Of a stretch of 64,000 nt of DNA, positions 17,734 through 24,367 are shown piece by piece. Numbering within the stretch: the stretch's first letter is position 1; the number at the start of each line of letters is the position of its first letter. Under the pieces are notes generated by a model. That model was not told where the DNA came from. It saw nothing but the letters and a program-made list of their open reading frames with translations, and made no database searches. The translations under genes and the position numbers were made by a program. This DNA comes from Gemmatimonadetes bacterium SCN 70-22 (GTDB lineage Bacteria; Gemmatimonadota; Gemmatimonadetes; Gemmatimonadales; Gemmatimonadaceae): contig MEDZ01000018.1 in assembly GCA_001724275.1 (NCBI GenBank), forward strand, positions 1 through 64,000. Direction: 5' to 3'.

Positions 17734-19527
17734 ATGCGAATCCTTCGATGTGCCCTTGCCGCGAGCGCGATCGCCGCGGCGATCACCGCCGCCGACGCCT
17801 CGGCCCAGCGCCCCTCGTCGCTCAACGCCTACGGGAATCCGCGCCGTGTCGCCCCCGCGCCGACCACCGCGGCGATCACGGCGCGCGACCTCCAGGTACG
17901 TCTCTACCAGTTCGCCGACGACTCGATGCAGGGGCGCCAGGTGGGACGCGTGGGGAACATGAAGGGGACCGACTACATCGCCCGCGAACTCCGGCGGATG
18001 GGCGTCAGGCCCGCCGGGAACAACGGAACGTACTTCCAGGTCCTCCCCTATCACCTGCGCCGGTTCACGGACCAGTCGCGCCTTTCCGTCAGCGGCAACC
18101 CGCTGCAGTGGGAGCGCGACTGGGTGGCGGTCCCTGGTGTCCGCGCGCCCCGCCCCGTTGTCGGGGCGGAGGTGATCTTCGGCGGGGTCGCCGGCGACAC
18201 GATGCGGCAGGTCTCGCGGGCCGAGGCCGCCGGGAAGTTCGTCGTCGTCGTCCCGTCGCCCACGCCGGCCGCGGCACCCGTCGCCCCCCGGGGGCGCTTC
18301 GCGCCCTCGCCCCCGTCCCGCTTCTCGGATGCGGTCGCGGTGGCCACGGTGGACCTCGATGCCCTCACGCCGGCGCAGCGGCGCGCCATCAACCTCCCGA
18401 CGGTGGCCACGCAATCCGGCGGCGGACGCCCCCGCCCGGCGGCGCCTGACGCGCCCCTCGACTCGCTCACCTACTTCAAGCAGCAGGTCGACCAGCTGGC
18501 ACCGCAGGCGGTCATCCGACTGACGCGCGGCGCCGCCGCGCGCCTGTTCGGTGTCGCGTCGCTCGACGCGCTCGCCCCCGGCGCTCGTGGCGGGACGGTC
18601 AACGCCTCGCTGGACTACGTGGAGCAGCCGTCGGACTACGCCCGCAACGTCGTCGCCGTGATCCCCGGAAGCGACCCGGCGCTGGCCCGACAGTACGTGG
18701 CGATCGGCGCGCACAACGACCACGTCGGCCTCACCACGCCGGTGGACAAGGACTCCATCAAGGCGTTCAACGACGAGCGCAACCGCCGGTTGCTGGCCAA
18801 CAGGATGATCGCCCTCACCCCGGCGCAGCTGGCGGAGATCCGCGTGAACATGGACAGCATCCGCCGGGTCCACCCGGTGGCGCGACTCGACTCGATCAAC
18901 AACGGCGCCGACGACGACGGTTCCGGCTCGATGGCGCTCCTGGAGATCGCCGAGTACGTCCAGGCGATGAAGGTCAAGCCCAGGCGGTCGACGCTCCTCG
19001 TCTGGCACACCGGCGAGGAGGCCGGGCTGGTCGGCTCCGCCTTCTTCACCCGCAACCCCACCGTCCCGATGGATTCGATCGTCTCGCAGCTCAACATCGA
19101 CATGATCGGGCGCGGGCGCGAGGGCGACCTCCCCGGCGGATCCTCCGACTACCTGGGCGTCGTGGGATCGTTCTTCGACTCCCGGGACCTGGGCGAGACG
19201 GTCGCCGCCGTCAACCGCAAGCAGCCACGCCCACTGGCGCTCGACTACCAGTACGACTCGACGATGTCGTGGAGCGGGTACAACAACATCTACGGGCGGA
19301 GCGACCACTACAACTACGCGCTGCAGGGGGTGCCGATCGCCTTCTTCTTCACCGGACTGCACGGTGACTATCACCAGCGCTCGGACGAAGCGGAGTACAT
19401 CGACTACCCGCACTATGCCCGGATCACGAACTACATCCGCGACCTCGCGGTGGCAGTCGGGAATGGCCCGCGCCCGCGGATCAACGGGACGCGGCCGGCC
19501 CGTCCGCCGCGGCCGGTCGTTCCCTGA
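17734..19527 (+). CDS. exported M28 family zinc aminopeptidase
   Basis: A 597-aa exported peptidase. The signal peptide is CALAASAIAAAITAADASAQ. A PA (protease-associated) insert probably occupies the mid-region. The M28 co-catalytic zinc site is visible: His/Asp in GAHNDHVG (about 324), Asp in NNGADDDGSG (about 390), Glu-Glu in HTGEEAGLVGS (about 426), Asp in NIDMIGRG and His in FTGLHGDYHQ (about 543). It has an unusually long insertion after the first zinc motif (about 330-380, rich in charged residues). The role is probably periplasmic or extracellular peptide trimming to supply amino acids. It converges on a TonB receptor gene across a strong hairpin. Confidence 0.9.
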   Translation: MRILRCALAASAIAAAITAADASAQRPSSLNAYGNPRRVAPAPTTAAITARDLQVRLYQFADDSMQGRQVGRVGNMKGTDYIARELRRMGVRPAGNNGTYFQVLPYHLRRFTDQSRLSVSGNPLQWERDWVAVPGVRAPRPVVGAEVIFGGVAGDTMRQVSRAEAAGKFVVVVPSPTPAAAPVAPRGRFAPSPPSRFSDAVAVATVDLDALTPAQRRAINLPTVATQSGGGRPRPAAPDAPLDSLTYFKQQVDQLAPQAVIRLTRGAAARLFGVASLDALAPGARGGTVNASLDYVEQPSDYARNVVAVIPGSDPALARQYVAIGAHNDHVGLTTPVDKDSIKAFNDERNRRLLANRMIALTPAQLAEIRVNMDSIRRVHPVARLDSINNGADDDGSGSMALLEIAEYVQAMKVKPRRSTLLVWHTGEEAGLVGSAFFTRNPTVPMDSIVSQLNIDMIGRGREGDLPGGSSDYLGVVGSFFDSRDLGETVAAVNRKQPRPLALDYQYDSTMSWSGYNNIYGRSDHYNYALQGVPIAFFFTGLHGDYHQRSDEAEYIDYPHYARITNYIRDLAVAVGNGPRPRINGTRPARPPRPVVP

Positions 19528-19621: not shown

Positions 19622-21745
19622 CTACCAGCTCGTCTCGGCGGTCACGAAGACGCTCCGCGCCGGGAGGACGAAGTAGCGCACCGTCCCCGACGACGACACC
19701 GACCCGCTCCCGTAGCCCTGGCGGTTCCCCAGGTTCACGCCGCGCACCGTGAGGGCATACCGCGCGCGGGAGAAGCGCGCCGCCCCATCCAGCACGTAGT
19801 ACGCCGGGAGGAGGCGATCGGCGCTGGACGTGTTGTCGAGGAAGGCGCGTGACTGGTAGCGCCCTTCCGCGGAGACGGTCACCGTGCGGGTGAGGGACAG
19901 GTCGGCCCGCTGCGTCGCCATGAAGCGCGGCGTGAGGAGTGGTTCCACGTTGCGCAGCACCTGCGGCGTTCCGCGCGAGGAGTCGGTGAACTGGCGGATG
20001 CGGTTGGCGCTCCACGTCAGGTTGCCCCCCAGCGTCAGGCGGTCGATTCCCCGCCAGCTGCCATCCAGCTCGATCCCTCGCCGGTAGCTCGCCCCGACGT
20101 TGCGCCGCGCCACCGCCCCCGATGCGGTCGGAGGACCGATCCGGGCGATGTCGTTGCGGAAATCCATGCTGTAGACGTTGGCCTGCACCTCCCACGCCGG
20201 CCGCGTGAGGGAGAGCCCGACCTCGAGGTCACGCACCGTCTCCGGGCGCACGCGCGTGAAGTCGCCGATGTCGGCTTCGTTGTACGTGCTCAGGTCGTCG
20301 TCGCCGGCGAAGAGGTCGCTGCGCGCCGGCTCGCGCGTCGTGGCGCCGTACGATGCGAAGGCGCTCACTCCTCGCCCCAGCGTGTACGTCACCCCGCCCT
20401 TGGGATTGAAGAACGTCCAGTCGATGGAGCGCCCGGCAACCCCCGCGTTGGGGTCGGGCTCGTAACGGAACGAGGCGTGACGCCCCTGCAGGTCGGCGAA
20501 CCACCGGGCCCGCCCGACGTCCCGCGCGACCTTGAGGAAGGCGCTCACGTCGCGCTTGTGCCCGGTGTTGTCGTACAGCGTGGTGCTTGGGCGCAGGTAG
20601 CCGCGGTGCGCGCGGGCGTACGTGTTGGCGTTGATCCCGGCGTTCAGCCGCCACGCTCCCGCGTCGTGGTTCACGGCGCTCGTGACCCCGTACCAGCGGT
20701 GGGCGAGGTTGAAGCGATACCGGTCGTCGCCGTCGAACCAGTCGTAGTTGCCGCTCGCCGCGTTGCGATAGACGGTCGTGTTGAGCGAGGTCGCATCGCT
20801 GACCAGGCGCGTGTACGCGAGGGCGACCATCTGCTGACCGAAGCGATCGTGCTCGTCGGGCGACAGGGGGTTGAAGCGCCGGTTGCGGGCGAGCTCGTCG
20901 AGCGTCGCCCCCACATACGAGAGCGTGTCGGAGAGGACGCCGGCCAGTGCGGTGAGCTTGAGGATGTCGCGATCGCCGAACCACCCGGCCCCCACCAGCG
21001 CCGAGCCGCCGGCCACGCCGCTGTGGTCGCGGTAGCCATTGGTCCGCAGCACGCCCGCGCGCGCCTGCACCGCGAGGCGGTCGCCGGCCCCGCCGAGTCC
21101 CGAGCGATACGCGCCGCTGATCCGCTGCGAGCCGAACGAGCCGGCCTGTACCTGCAGGTCGCCGCCGCCGCGGCGCTGCGCCACCGGCATCGTCTCGAAG
21201 TTGATGGACCCGGCAAACGACGCCGTGCCGGCACTGCTCGTCCCGACCCCGCGCTGCACCTGCACCGACTGCACGCTCGACATCAGGTCGGCGAAGTTGG
21301 CGAAGTAGAGGACCTGGTCCTCCATGTCGTTGAGCGGCACCCCGTCGATCGTGATGTTGATGCGGGTCTGGTCCATCCCGCGCAACCGGAGGTACGAGTA
21401 CCCCCAGTTGGTCCCCGTCTCGGTGTGCGCGGTGAGCGACGGCGACGCCCCCACGAGGAGGAGCGGCACGTCCTGCCCGAACTGGCGCTGGCGGATGGTC
21501 GCCGCCGGAATCGTCTTCTGGGCGATCGGCGCCCCCGAGGCGGCGCGGATCGCGGTCACGAGGACACCCTCGAGCCGCCGCCCCGTGTCGGCGGTGACGC
21601 GCGTGGTGTCGGTCGCCTGCGCCGCGACCGCCGCAGGGCAAGCCGAGGCGAGGGCCCCGGAGACTGTCAGGATGGCGATGGCATGGCGCGCGTCGCGCGA
21701 CGCGCGGGCGGAGCGCGCGATGCGCCCCCACGAAAGAAACTTCAT
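19622..21745 (-). CDS. TonB-dependent outer-membrane receptor, thiamine-type
   Basis: A 707-aa outer-membrane gated barrel. The signal peptide ends near AAVAAQA. A plug domain spans about 55-190 (TRINITIDGVPLNDMEDQVL, VQVQRGVGTSSAG), then a beta-barrel ends in the aromatic C-terminal residue Trp (FVTAETSW), as required for outer-membrane insertion. A TPP riboswitch lies directly upstream, so the substrate is very probably thiamine, its phosphates or a precursor. Riboswitch-controlled thiamine TonB receptors are known in other phyla (Omr1 type). The start ATG at 21745 has its Shine-Dalgarno sequence within the aptamer. No inner-membrane thiamine transporter is adjacent. Confidence 0.9.
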   Translation of the reverse strand: MKFLSWGRIARSARASRDARHAIAILTVSGALASACPAAVAAQATDTTRVTADTGRRLEGVLVTAIRAASGAPIAQKTIPAATIRQRQFGQDVPLLLVGASPSLTAHTETGTNWGYSYLRLRGMDQTRINITIDGVPLNDMEDQVLYFANFADLMSSVQSVQVQRGVGTSSAGTASFAGSINFETMPVAQRRGGGDLQVQAGSFGSQRISGAYRSGLGGAGDRLAVQARAGVLRTNGYRDHSGVAGGSALVGAGWFGDRDILKLTALAGVLSDTLSYVGATLDELARNRRFNPLSPDEHDRFGQQMVALAYTRLVSDATSLNTTVYRNAASGNYDWFDGDDRYRFNLAHRWYGVTSAVNHDAGAWRLNAGINANTYARAHRGYLRPSTTLYDNTGHKRDVSAFLKVARDVGRARWFADLQGRHASFRYEPDPNAGVAGRSIDWTFFNPKGGVTYTLGRGVSAFASYGATTREPARSDLFAGDDDLSTYNEADIGDFTRVRPETVRDLEVGLSLTRPAWEVQANVYSMDFRNDIARIGPPTASGAVARRNVGASYRRGIELDGSWRGIDRLTLGGNLTWSANRIRQFTDSSRGTPQVLRNVEPLLTPRFMATQRADLSLTRTVTVSAEGRYQSRAFLDNTSSADRLLPAYYVLDGAARFSRARYALTVRGVNLGNRQGYGSGSVSSSGTVRYFVLPARSVFVTAETSW

Positions 21746-21750
21746 CTGTG

Positions 21751-21834
21751 GACTCCCTACGCCGGTACGAACCGGATCAGGTTCTGCGGGACTCTCTCAG
21801 CCGGCGCTCACTGGCGGCGCCGGCACCCCGGTCA
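21751..21834 (-). promoter_or_regulatory. TPP riboswitch (THI element)
   Basis: Read on the minus strand, the leader contains the conserved TPP-aptamer blocks in order: CGGGGTGCC, GGCTGAGAGAG, AACCTGATCCGG, and TACCGGCGTAGGGAGTC. P1 can form from GAC and GTC, and a P3 stem from GGCGC/GCGCC. The AGGGAG at the 3' end of the aptamer stands at -13 to -8 relative to the receptor's ATG and is the only Shine-Dalgarno candidate. Ligand binding would therefore hide the ribosome site directly, and there is no room for a separate terminator or expression platform. Confidence 0.93.
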
Positions 21835-21843
21835 TGTGGCCGA

Positions 21844-21872
21844 ACGATAACCAGCGCGCTGCCTCCGGTGAA
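21844..21872 (-). promoter_or_regulatory. candidate promoter of the TPP-riboswitch transcript
   Basis: On the minus strand TTCACC (21867-21872) and TATCGT (21844-21849) are separated by 17 nt, a sigma70-like arrangement. Transcription would begin about 7-8 nt downstream, right at the 5' edge of the aptamer, which makes positional sense. The matches to consensus are moderate. Confidence 0.4.
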
Positions 21873-21949: not shown

Positions 21950-24367
21950 CTACTCCGACCGCAACGCCTGCGACGGCGCCACCTGGCCGGCGCGTCGCGA
22001 AGGGATCCAGACCGCGAGGAGCGCCACCGCCAGCAAGACCCCGGCCGAGCCCCCGAGCGTCGCCGGATCGGACGGCGACACATTGAAGAGGAGCGATCGG
22101 AGCAGCCGCGAGGTCGCGACCACACCGGCGGCCCCCGCGAGCAGCCCGACGCCTAACGGCACCGCTCCCGTCGCCATGGCGCCACGCACGACGCCCGCAC
22201 CGGTGGCGCCAAGCGCCATGCGGATGCCGAACTCGTGTCGCCGCTCGCCGACCGCGTAGGCCATCACACCGTACACACCGACGGCCCCGAGCAGGAGTGC
22301 CAGGCCGCCGAAGAAGGTGAGGACGCCCGCGAAGAACGCGCGCTGGGACATGGAGGCGTCGAGGACCTCCGACAAGGGACGGATGCTGGCGATCGGGATC
22401 TCGCTGCTGATCGCCTCGACCGCCTGACGCACCGGCGTGACTTGCAGCGACGGCTTCATCACCGTCCGCACCATCACCACCATCCCCGGCACCGGAAACT
22501 GTCGCAGCGGGATGTACATCTCCGGATCCGGGGCGCGGTCGAGTCGCCGTTGATGCACGTCGCCCACTACCCCCACGACCCGGAACGGGCGATTGCCGAA
22601 CAGCTGGATCGTGCGACCCACCGCGCGCTCCCCCGGCCAGAGCGTGGCTGCCATCGTCGCGTTGACCAGCCCCACCATCTCGCCCTCCGCCACGTCGCCG
22701 GCCGACACGTCACGTCCCTCCAGCAGCGGCATGCCGACCGTCCGGAAGTAGCCCGGCGTCACCACGCGGAAGTTCGCGGCGGGCAGCGGTCCGTCCATGG
22801 GCGGACGGTGTCCCTCCGCGAGGTACGGGAACGCCCAGTTGCTGCGCGTGAACGGGAGGAGATGAATGGCCCCCACGCCCGTGACGCCCGGGAGCGCCGA
22901 CAGGCGGTCCGTCACCTGCTCGTAGTATTGCGCCGCCCGCTGCCCCCCATAGCGCGCATCCGGGGGGGCGATCTCCACGGCCAGTACCTGCGACGTCTCC
23001 ATCCCGGGGTCGACGGCACGGAGCGCCCGCATGCTCGACAGGAGGAGCCCTGCCCCGCTCACCACCACGAGGGCGAGCGCCACCTCGATCGCGATCAGCG
23101 CGGCGCCCACTCGCCGCGCGCCGCGTGTCCCCCCGGCGGTGCGCCGCCCCGACGCAAGGTCGGGGCGCAGGTCTCCGCGCGTGGCGCGGAGCGCGGGAAC
23201 GAGCGCGAATCCAACGCCGGAAAGCAGCGAAACGCCGAGGGCGAACGCCAGCACACGCAGGTCCATGCCCGCCTCGCCCGACCGGGGGAGGCCCGAACGC
23301 TCGGCCACCTGCAGCGTCGTCAGGAGCCCCTTGGCCAGCGCCGTTCCCAAAAGGCCGCCGATGAGCGCCAGCACGACGCCCTCCGTCAGCTGCTCCCGCA
23401 CGAGGCGACCACGGTTGGCGCCGAGTGCCGTGCGGACCGCGAATTCCTGGCGACGCCGCTCCCCGCGCGCCAGGAGCAGGTTGGCCAGGTTCGCGCAGGC
23501 CAGGAGGACGACGAAGCCCACCGACGCCAGCAGCAGGCGCAATGGCGTCTCGACGTCGCCCACCATCGACGTGAGGAGCCCCATGACGCTCGCGCTGCGC
23601 ACCGCGTCCTCGTCGATGACTCCCGTGTACGCTCCGCGCAGGCGCTGCATCGTCGCGCGCACCTGTTGCGCCGCCACCTCGACCGTGACGCCGGGACGCA
23701 GGCGGGCGGCGATGCGGTTGACGTACCACGTGCTGTCGTTCGCGATCGTGCGCCCCGGCGGGAGGCTGAGTGGAACCCAGACCGCCGTCTCCGGACCCCC
23801 AGGCTGGAACGGCGCGACGAAACCGCGGGGCATCACGCCGACGATGGTCCGCATCTCGTGTCCGAAGCCGTCGAGGCGAAGGCGCTTCCCCACGATCGAC
23901 GGGTCACCGCCAAACCGGCCCTGCCACAAGGCGTAGCTCACCAGCGCGACGTCGGAGCGCTCGGGGCTGCGCGCCTCCGGACCGAAGGGTCGCCCGAGCG
24001 CCGGCGTGACCCCGAAGACGGAGAAGAAGTCCGCGTCGACCGCCTGCGCGGCGAGCGACGCGGCGGGTCCGTCACCGCTGAGTGTCAGGTCCGGGAAGGC
24101 GATCCCGGTCGATGCGGCCAGCGCCGGCACCCCCTCGGCGAGGGCGTCCGCCAGCGAGATGTTGGCGTTCTGCCCCGGTGACACGAGCACCAGGCGCTCC
24201 GGCTCGGGATACGGGAGCGGACGCAGCATCACCGCGTTGACCACGGTGAATATCGCCACCGAGGCTCCGATCCCGAGGGCCAGGGTGGACAGGGCCGCGG
24301 CCGTGAATCCCCAATCCGCTTGCAGCCTGCGGATGACGATGCGTATCTCGCTCCACACTGCTTCCAC
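21950..24367 (-). CDS. ADOP-type duplicated ABC permease
   Basis: An 805-aa member of the ADOP (acidobacterial duplicated orphan permease) family. The N-terminal helix is GFTAAALSTLALGIGASVAIFTVVNAV, preceded by the typical EIRIVIRRL segment. A MacB_PCD periplasmic domain follows (RPLPYPEPERLVLV onward), then three helices near 275-390 (LLLASVGFVVLLACANLANL). A second periplasmic domain and three C-terminal helices (about 685-790) complete it. No ATPase gene is beside it, as is usual for these orphans. The start is GTG with GGAGG 6 nt upstream. The function is unknown; export or membrane-stress roles are inferred from MacB. It lies downstream of the TPR-like gene, separated by a strong hairpin. 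Confidence 0.9.
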   Translation of the reverse strand: MEAVWSEIRIVIRRLQADWGFTAAALSTLALGIGASVAIFTVVNAVMLRPLPYPEPERLVLVSPGQNANISLADALAEGVPALAASTGIAFPDLTLSGDGPAASLAAQAVDADFFSVFGVTPALGRPFGPEARSPERSDVALVSYALWQGRFGGDPSIVGKRLRLDGFGHEMRTIVGVMPRGFVAPFQPGGPETAVWVPLSLPPGRTIANDSTWYVNRIAARLRPGVTVEVAAQQVRATMQRLRGAYTGVIDEDAVRSASVMGLLTSMVGDVETPLRLLLASVGFVVLLACANLANLLLARGERRRQEFAVRTALGANRGRLVREQLTEGVVLALIGGLLGTALAKGLLTTLQVAERSGLPRSGEAGMDLRVLAFALGVSLLSGVGFALVPALRATRGDLRPDLASGRRTAGGTRGARRVGAALIAIEVALALVVVSGAGLLLSSMRALRAVDPGMETSQVLAVEIAPPDARYGGQRAAQYYEQVTDRLSALPGVTGVGAIHLLPFTRSNWAFPYLAEGHRPPMDGPLPAANFRVVTPGYFRTVGMPLLEGRDVSAGDVAEGEMVGLVNATMAATLWPGERAVGRTIQLFGNRPFRVVGVVGDVHQRRLDRAPDPEMYIPLRQFPVPGMVVMVRTVMKPSLQVTPVRQAVEAISSEIPIASIRPLSEVLDASMSQRAFFAGVLTFFGGLALLLGAVGVYGVMAYAVGERRHEFGIRMALGATGAGVVRGAMATGAVPLGVGLLAGAAGVVATSRLLRSLLFNVSPSDPATLGGSAGVLLAVALLAVWIPSRRAGQVAPSQALRSE

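Follow-up and report, generated by a model that had tools for sequence, protein, structure and literature searches.

Here we describe a riboswitch and the gene it precedes in a 64,000-nucleotide (nt) stretch of contig MEDZ01000018.1 from Gemmatimonadetes bacterium SCN 70-22, a member of the Gemmatimonadaceae; this whole stretch is referred to below as the window. On the minus strand, a thiamine pyrophosphate (TPP) riboswitch of the direct type, in which the ribosome-binding site (RBS) is part of the aptamer itself, very probably controls a TonB-dependent receptor for thiamine uptake. The gene (19622–21745, minus strand) encodes a TonB-dependent outer-membrane receptor of 707 amino acids, whose Plug and TonB-barrel domains score above the Pfam cut-offs (PF07715 and PF00593, respectively) and whose predicted role in the uptake of thiamine or a related compound rests on its linkage to TPP aptamers across genomes. 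The computations established the aptamer, its spacing from the gene, the single start codon, the conservation of the arrangement, and its association with the receptor and with the absence of thiC.

A cmscan search placed a match to the TPP riboswitch model RF00059 at 21840–21737 (minus strand), with a score of 65.0 bits against a gathering cut-off of 54.3 (E = 1.7e-10). The match spans the whole model (positions 1–105), is the only gathering-level match to Rfam within the 64-kb window, and represents the single TPP aptamer of the genome (4.70 Mb, 99.98% complete). In the cmscan alignment, the ligand-contacting blocks GGGGUGC, CUGAGA, GAACCUGAUC and CGUAGGGA are all preserved, and the pocket blocks CUGAGA, ACCUGAUC and CGUAGGGA are unbroken. 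The helix names P4, J4-1 and P1 follow the established nomenclature of TPP aptamers. P1 is short: its 5′ strand GAC (21831–21833, minus strand) pairs with GUC (21751–21753), giving only 3 perfect base pairs (bp), the other P1 pairs in the alignment being non-standard. An initial annotation of this DNA, made from its letters alone, had proposed a TPP riboswitch here, and the covariance model bears this out; the feature it had positioned is real, although the strand, which was missing there, is the minus one. Judged by this alignment, the element is a genuine TPP riboswitch and is predicted to bind TPP.

The conserved 3′ strand of the aptamer, GUAGGGAG, sits 7 nt upstream of the receptor ATG. 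Read along the minus strand, AGGGAG (21758–21753) is followed by TCCACAG and then by the ATG (21745–21743). AGGGAG joins the end of the CGUAGGGA block to the start of the P1 3′ strand, contains the core GGAG (21753–21756), and is the sole Shine-Dalgarno (SD) candidate. An exact search of the genome for the 16S 3′ end gave no match, and we therefore assumed the general bacterial anti-SD sequence. The ATG is the first in-frame start and is placed identically in L032 and L033, two orthologues from the same genus; the next in-frame ATG, GTG or TTG comes at codon 63, a GTG just before the Plug domain, so that starting there would cost the protein its signal peptide. A terminator scan found no intrinsic terminator around the leader, in which a spacer of 7 nt separates aptamer and gene. 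The RBS is accordingly contained within the conserved aptamer core at a working spacing, with neither a terminator nor another RBS in between, as in direct translation attenuation. No other SD candidate was present and the 7-nt spacing was correct, in agreement with the proposal of the initial annotation that the aptamer 3′ strand is the only ribosome-binding candidate.

To locate the promoter, 86 related aptamers were aligned on the GGGG of P2. The A/T fraction rose to 0.62–0.70 at −19 to −13 from this motif, against a background of 0.33, and a second, weaker T-rich step appeared around −43. In the window, a −10-like A/T-rich box, TTATCGTT (21843–21850, minus strand), lies directly 5′ of the aptamer and is predicted from this profile to belong to its promoter. 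A scan of the window for canonical sigma-70 promoters gave no match. An A/T-rich −10-like box outside the canonical sigma-70 consensus is conserved directly 5′ of TPP aptamers in this order. Because the box stops a few bases before P1, transcription most likely begins at the 5′ edge of P1, which would leave a leader consisting of roughly the aptamer alone. A transcript that omits the aptamer, an objection that the initial annotation had raised against itself, is unsupported given this predicted promoter, and its other objection, a more distal start in frame that has a ribosome site to itself, found no support either, no such start being seen. That the aptamer is a relic, the true regulated start lying downstream or the transcript beginning inside the aptamer, strikes us as most improbable: no in-frame start precedes codon 63, start position and spacing are kept in close relatives, a promoter-like box stands 5′ of the aptamer, and the aptamer core is intact.

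We examined 99 genomes, comprising the window's own and 98 relatives. A TPP aptamer was present in 84, each of which has the receptor or ThiC. Ninety aptamer loci were retrieved and their 3′ ends read. The direct arrangement, with the receptor in frame, occurred in 18 of the 40 receptor-linked aptamers, the window's included, with SD–ATG spacings of 5–9 nt; because it recurs in this way among related genomes, the coincidence of aptamer and SD is not a chance overlap. Another 22 aptamers upstream of thiC-type genes are also direct. A second collection, drawn from named genomes, yielded 80 receptor loci, nearly all recorded as Gemmatimonadota, which assigns the window to this phylum, with an aptamer upstream in 73. 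Of these, 26 non-duplicate loci are clearly direct; the uncurated count was 31 new ones, and it took in a few separate-platform GTG/ATG starts that were dropped from later tests.

The architecture is not unusual. Direct translation attenuation, in which the aptamer core conceals the RBS and no extra platform is needed, is a published and named category that occurs most often in TPP, preQ1 and SAM-I riboswitches (Barrick and Breaker, 2007; PMC2258182); the 22 thiC-type aptamers of the same order are built alike. The present switch is another instance of a design already described for other bacteria, sharing with it an RBS in the conserved purine-rich 3′ strand of the aptamer core. It differs in its occurrence in Gemmatimonadota, in the TonB-dependent receptor that it precedes, and in a conserved hairpin in the first codons of that gene.

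The distribution of thiamine genes bears on what the receptor imports. Among the 42 receptor-bearing genomes, 40 have a TPP aptamer and 2 have thiC. Receptor and ThiC occur together in 2 of the 99 genomes, the receptor alone in 40, ThiC alone in 49 and neither in 8 (Fisher p = 3e-17, uncorrected for genome relatedness); within the family, the corresponding counts are 2, 37, 15 and 5 (p = 4e-8). In the window's own genome, neither ThiC nor ThiE was found, and ThiL is present (231 bits). A ThiG match in the same genome was not counted, as its 22.5 bits lie below the cut-off, which is reached only together with in-frame neighbours (23.1 bits). The near-exclusion of receptor and ThiC, combined with this gene set, leads us to conclude that the receptor most likely imports thiamine or a phosphorylated form of it. 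Compared with Palauibacterales, the Gemmatimonadales and Longimicrobiales have been reported to be capable of thiamine synthesis much more rarely (PMC10469786). A thiamine-related substrate had been suggested in the initial annotation; comparative genomics, through the aptamer linkage and the rarity of thiC among receptor genomes, supports it strongly, and the assignment is now stronger than a reading of the sequence alone allowed.

A substrate other than thiamine that spares thiamine synthesis, such as the precursor hydroxymethylpyrimidine (HMP), seems quite unlikely to us. TPP aptamers also govern precursor salvage, and some receptor genomes carry second TPP aptamers (L040, L057 and L078), likewise direct, in front of a gene that reads like thiM (candidate hydroxyethylthiazole kinase). 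However, ThiE is missing from the window's own genome, so that free precursors could not be joined there by the usual enzyme; moreover, ThiL is present, and nearly all receptor genomes lack thiC. Uptake of thiamine or its phosphate also has a parallel in OMthi (BT2390) of Bacteroides, a TonB-dependent receptor linked to a TPP switch; when this receptor is deleted, a biosynthesis mutant grows less well on limiting thiamine (PMC5613172). Both are TonB-dependent outer-membrane receptors behind a TPP riboswitch; B. thetaiotaomicron, in contrast, retains a biosynthesis operon with thiC, whereas the receptor genomes studied here mostly lack it. Bacteroidetes relatives of the receptor (L189, L190 (Xanthocytophaga flavus) and L205) share 36–40% identity with it and gave no RF00059 match in the retrieved DNA. 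A PnuC-family gene (L128, 1021–2717) was also considered as a thiamine transporter and set aside: it adjoins a gene read as a NadR-like kinase and, because of this NadR-type neighbour, is more likely to serve nicotinamide riboside uptake.

The initial annotation had described the switch as minimal and without a separate expression platform. The masking of the ribosome site stands, and no platform is seen as far as the ATG, but the first codons hold a conserved, covarying hairpin that qualifies both statements. In the window, this hairpin, GGGGCGC-AUCGC-GCGCUCC (21710–21728, minus strand), occupies nt 17–35 counted from the A of the ATG, with its centre at 26 (counted gap-free, A = 0), and adjoins the point where the front of an initiating ribosome is expected. 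It has 7 bp, but with one G-U pair and a 5-nt loop it falls outside our strict definition (six or more stem bp, centred at 24–27); taken singly it is unremarkable, being equalled by 8.1% of coding windows. Its position and pairing are conserved in direct-type orthologues, where the element falls between +15 and +36 from the ATG. Across 31 non-redundant direct-type genes, pairing was maximal at centre 26, with a mean Watson-Crick fraction of 0.573 over 8 pairs, compared to 0.294 ± 0.044 over all centres (z = 6.7). When partners were permuted among sequences, a null that retains relatedness, the observed pairing was reached in 0 of 5000 permutations.

The strict hairpin was present in 22 of the 31 receptor genes, compared with none of 23 other genes preceded by an SD (p = 3e-8); at shifted positions within these receptor genes, the count was 0–3 of 31. 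Resampling of synonymous codons produced a mean of 4.9 and a maximum of 13 in 1000 trials, and shuffling of codon order a mean of 1.35 and a maximum of 6; plain dinucleotide shuffles alone yielded a mean z of only −0.96. The stem is also preserved through compensatory changes, as in L138 (CACGCGCC-GCG-GGCGCGTG), L141 (CGCGTGCC-TCG-GGCACGCG), L182 (CGTGCGCC-CAT-GGCGCACG) and L150 (GCCGCCC-GTC-GGGCGGC). The pattern was first seen in 18 genes and recurs in the 26 loci retrieved later, while direct-type thiC genes showed no such hairpin (0/22). An origin as a by-product of GC content or of arginine-rich signal peptides is ruled out by the in-gene shifts, the control genes, and the codon-order and synonymous nulls. 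We also rejected an intrinsic terminator for most of the direct class, where a U-tract is confined to L041 and, in weaker form, to a small number of other genes.

The surrounding orthologues suggest where the hairpin may come from. In a maximum-likelihood tree of 39 orthologues, a fully supported branch separates 17 direct and 4 leader open reading frame (ORF) genes from 17 separate-platform genes and one direct gene, L043, which sits on a long branch. A number of separate-platform genes carry an intrinsic terminator that starts 25–27 nt after GGGAG, the distance being 25–31 nt over the orthologues L045, L068, L072, L165, L176, L177, L179, L183–L185, L200 and L201, and a strict scan found terminator-like structures in 4 of 18 and 11 of 25 separate-platform genes. 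The direct-type hairpin starts at a similar distance from GGGAG (7 + 17 nt in the window), and the direct-type gene L041 has a perfect terminator-like element, GGCGCGC-TCTG-GCGCGCC-TTTTTG, 24 nt after GGGAG and within the first codons. From this placement, the direct-type hairpin may be derived from a terminator.

A third arrangement was observed on two distinct branches of the tree (L034/L063 and L052/L073), where the aptamer SD serves an ORF of 22–27 codons whose TGA overlaps the receptor ATG as ATGA. This overlap suggests translational coupling under TPP control. In the B12 riboswitch of M. tuberculosis, a uPPE2–PPE2 relay likewise uses an AUGA overlap (PMC11260477); there, as in these relatives, a riboswitch-run short ORF has a stop that overlaps the main start, while ligand and aptamer differ and the window itself is without a leader ORF. 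Leader-like GTG ORFs in the separate-platform clade were inconsistent in frame and length and were regarded as chance.

How the hairpin might act can be framed in two ways. It could provide dual control, TPP hiding the SD and at the same time freeing the hairpin from ribosomes, thereby causing RNA polymerase to pause, or Rho to terminate transcription, early in the gene; in the ON state, the ribosome would melt the hairpin. We regard this as a tentative proposal and on balance an unlikely one. It is consistent with the conservation of the hairpin in position and by compensatory change, with its start ~24 nt after GGGAG, about where sister-clade terminators begin (25–27 nt), and with the U-tract retained in L041. 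It also has a precedent in E. coli thiC, whose start codon is the site of a TPP-dependent pause and of termination by Rho (PMC5234074); that system similarly places TPP control around the translation start and adds a co-transcriptional step, putative in our case, but employs a separate sequestering stem and an anti-P1 stem of its own. On the other hand, neither the window nor nearly any direct-type orthologue has a U-tract, the direct-type thiC genes do without the hairpin, and the window's copy is only marginally unusual. The broader proposal that the direct switch is a two-part device, in which the SD in the aptamer is joined by a terminator-descended hairpin that couples ribosome entry to the progress of RNA polymerase, we likewise hold to be possible but improbable.

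Alternatively, the hairpin could be an insulator that protects the aptamer and the SD from invasion by the GC-rich coding sequence, leaving the switch otherwise purely direct. Its location just beyond the footprint of the initiating ribosome and the GC-rich setting would suit such a role, yet partition-function folding of 14 leaders with the hairpin disallowed produced no consistent change in the accessibility of the SD or AUG, and we consider this explanation rather doubtful.

Direct masking of the ribosome site, as put forward in the initial annotation, remains the best reading, with the element acting as a predicted translational OFF switch. In the mechanism that we infer, which extends to ligand binding, the start sites, the OFF logic and the substrate, the weak 3-bp P1 and the 3′ strand of P4 would be mobile when TPP is lacking, and the ribosome would use the GGAG within the aptamer to initiate at the ATG 7 nt further on. 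Once cellular TPP suffices, its binding would lock P4, J4-1 and P1 and bury the GGAG, and receptor synthesis would halt. The coding-sequence hairpin 17–35 nt into the gene would be an accessory element, at best guess a co-transcriptional one: a pause or Rho-linked checkpoint inherited from an ancestral terminator and melted by the translating ribosome.

Several observations weigh against this account. In the minimum-energy fold without ligand, the SD is base-paired to the 3′ strand of P2, so the ligand-free state may not be fully open; such simple folds are, however, uninformative on SD accessibility, ignoring tertiary contacts and co-transcriptional order and having taken in upstream sequence that is probably not transcribed. 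TPP aptamers conserve AGGGAG in any case, including those of orthologues with separate platforms, and since it is kept even where it is not an SD, the case for the direct mode rests on the spacing and the lack of alternatives. Finally, TPK (PF04263) was not found in the window's own genome, and neither a kinase for imported thiamine nor an inner-membrane transporter was located, so the substrate can be given only as thiamine or a related compound.

The receptor gene seems to be monocistronic, because the next gene downstream, encoding an M28 peptidase and ending at 19527, runs on the opposite strand. Upstream, and in the receptor's own orientation, a gene for a MacB/FtsX-type permease ends at 21950. 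A search of solved structures returned no sequence relative, and an NCBIfam search gave weak matches only, far under the cut-offs. Among the retrieved loci, L182 lies on a contig labelled Candidatus Kuenenia stuttgartiensis and bears a Gemmatimonadota-type receptor (66% identity) with both aptamer and hairpin; this contig is probably mis-binned.

For Gemmatimonadaceae without thiC, these results put forward a well-supported candidate receptor for the uptake of thiamine. They also point to a conserved RNA element in the first codons of its gene that is easily probed by synonymous changes. Because its relatives show terminators, direct SD burial and ATGA leader ORFs behind one aptamer and an orthologous receptor, the family forms a natural series for how the expression platforms of riboswitches replace one another. 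If the two-part device proves true, the family would show a stepwise turnover between terminator, direct and leader-ORF control behind a single aptamer and gene.
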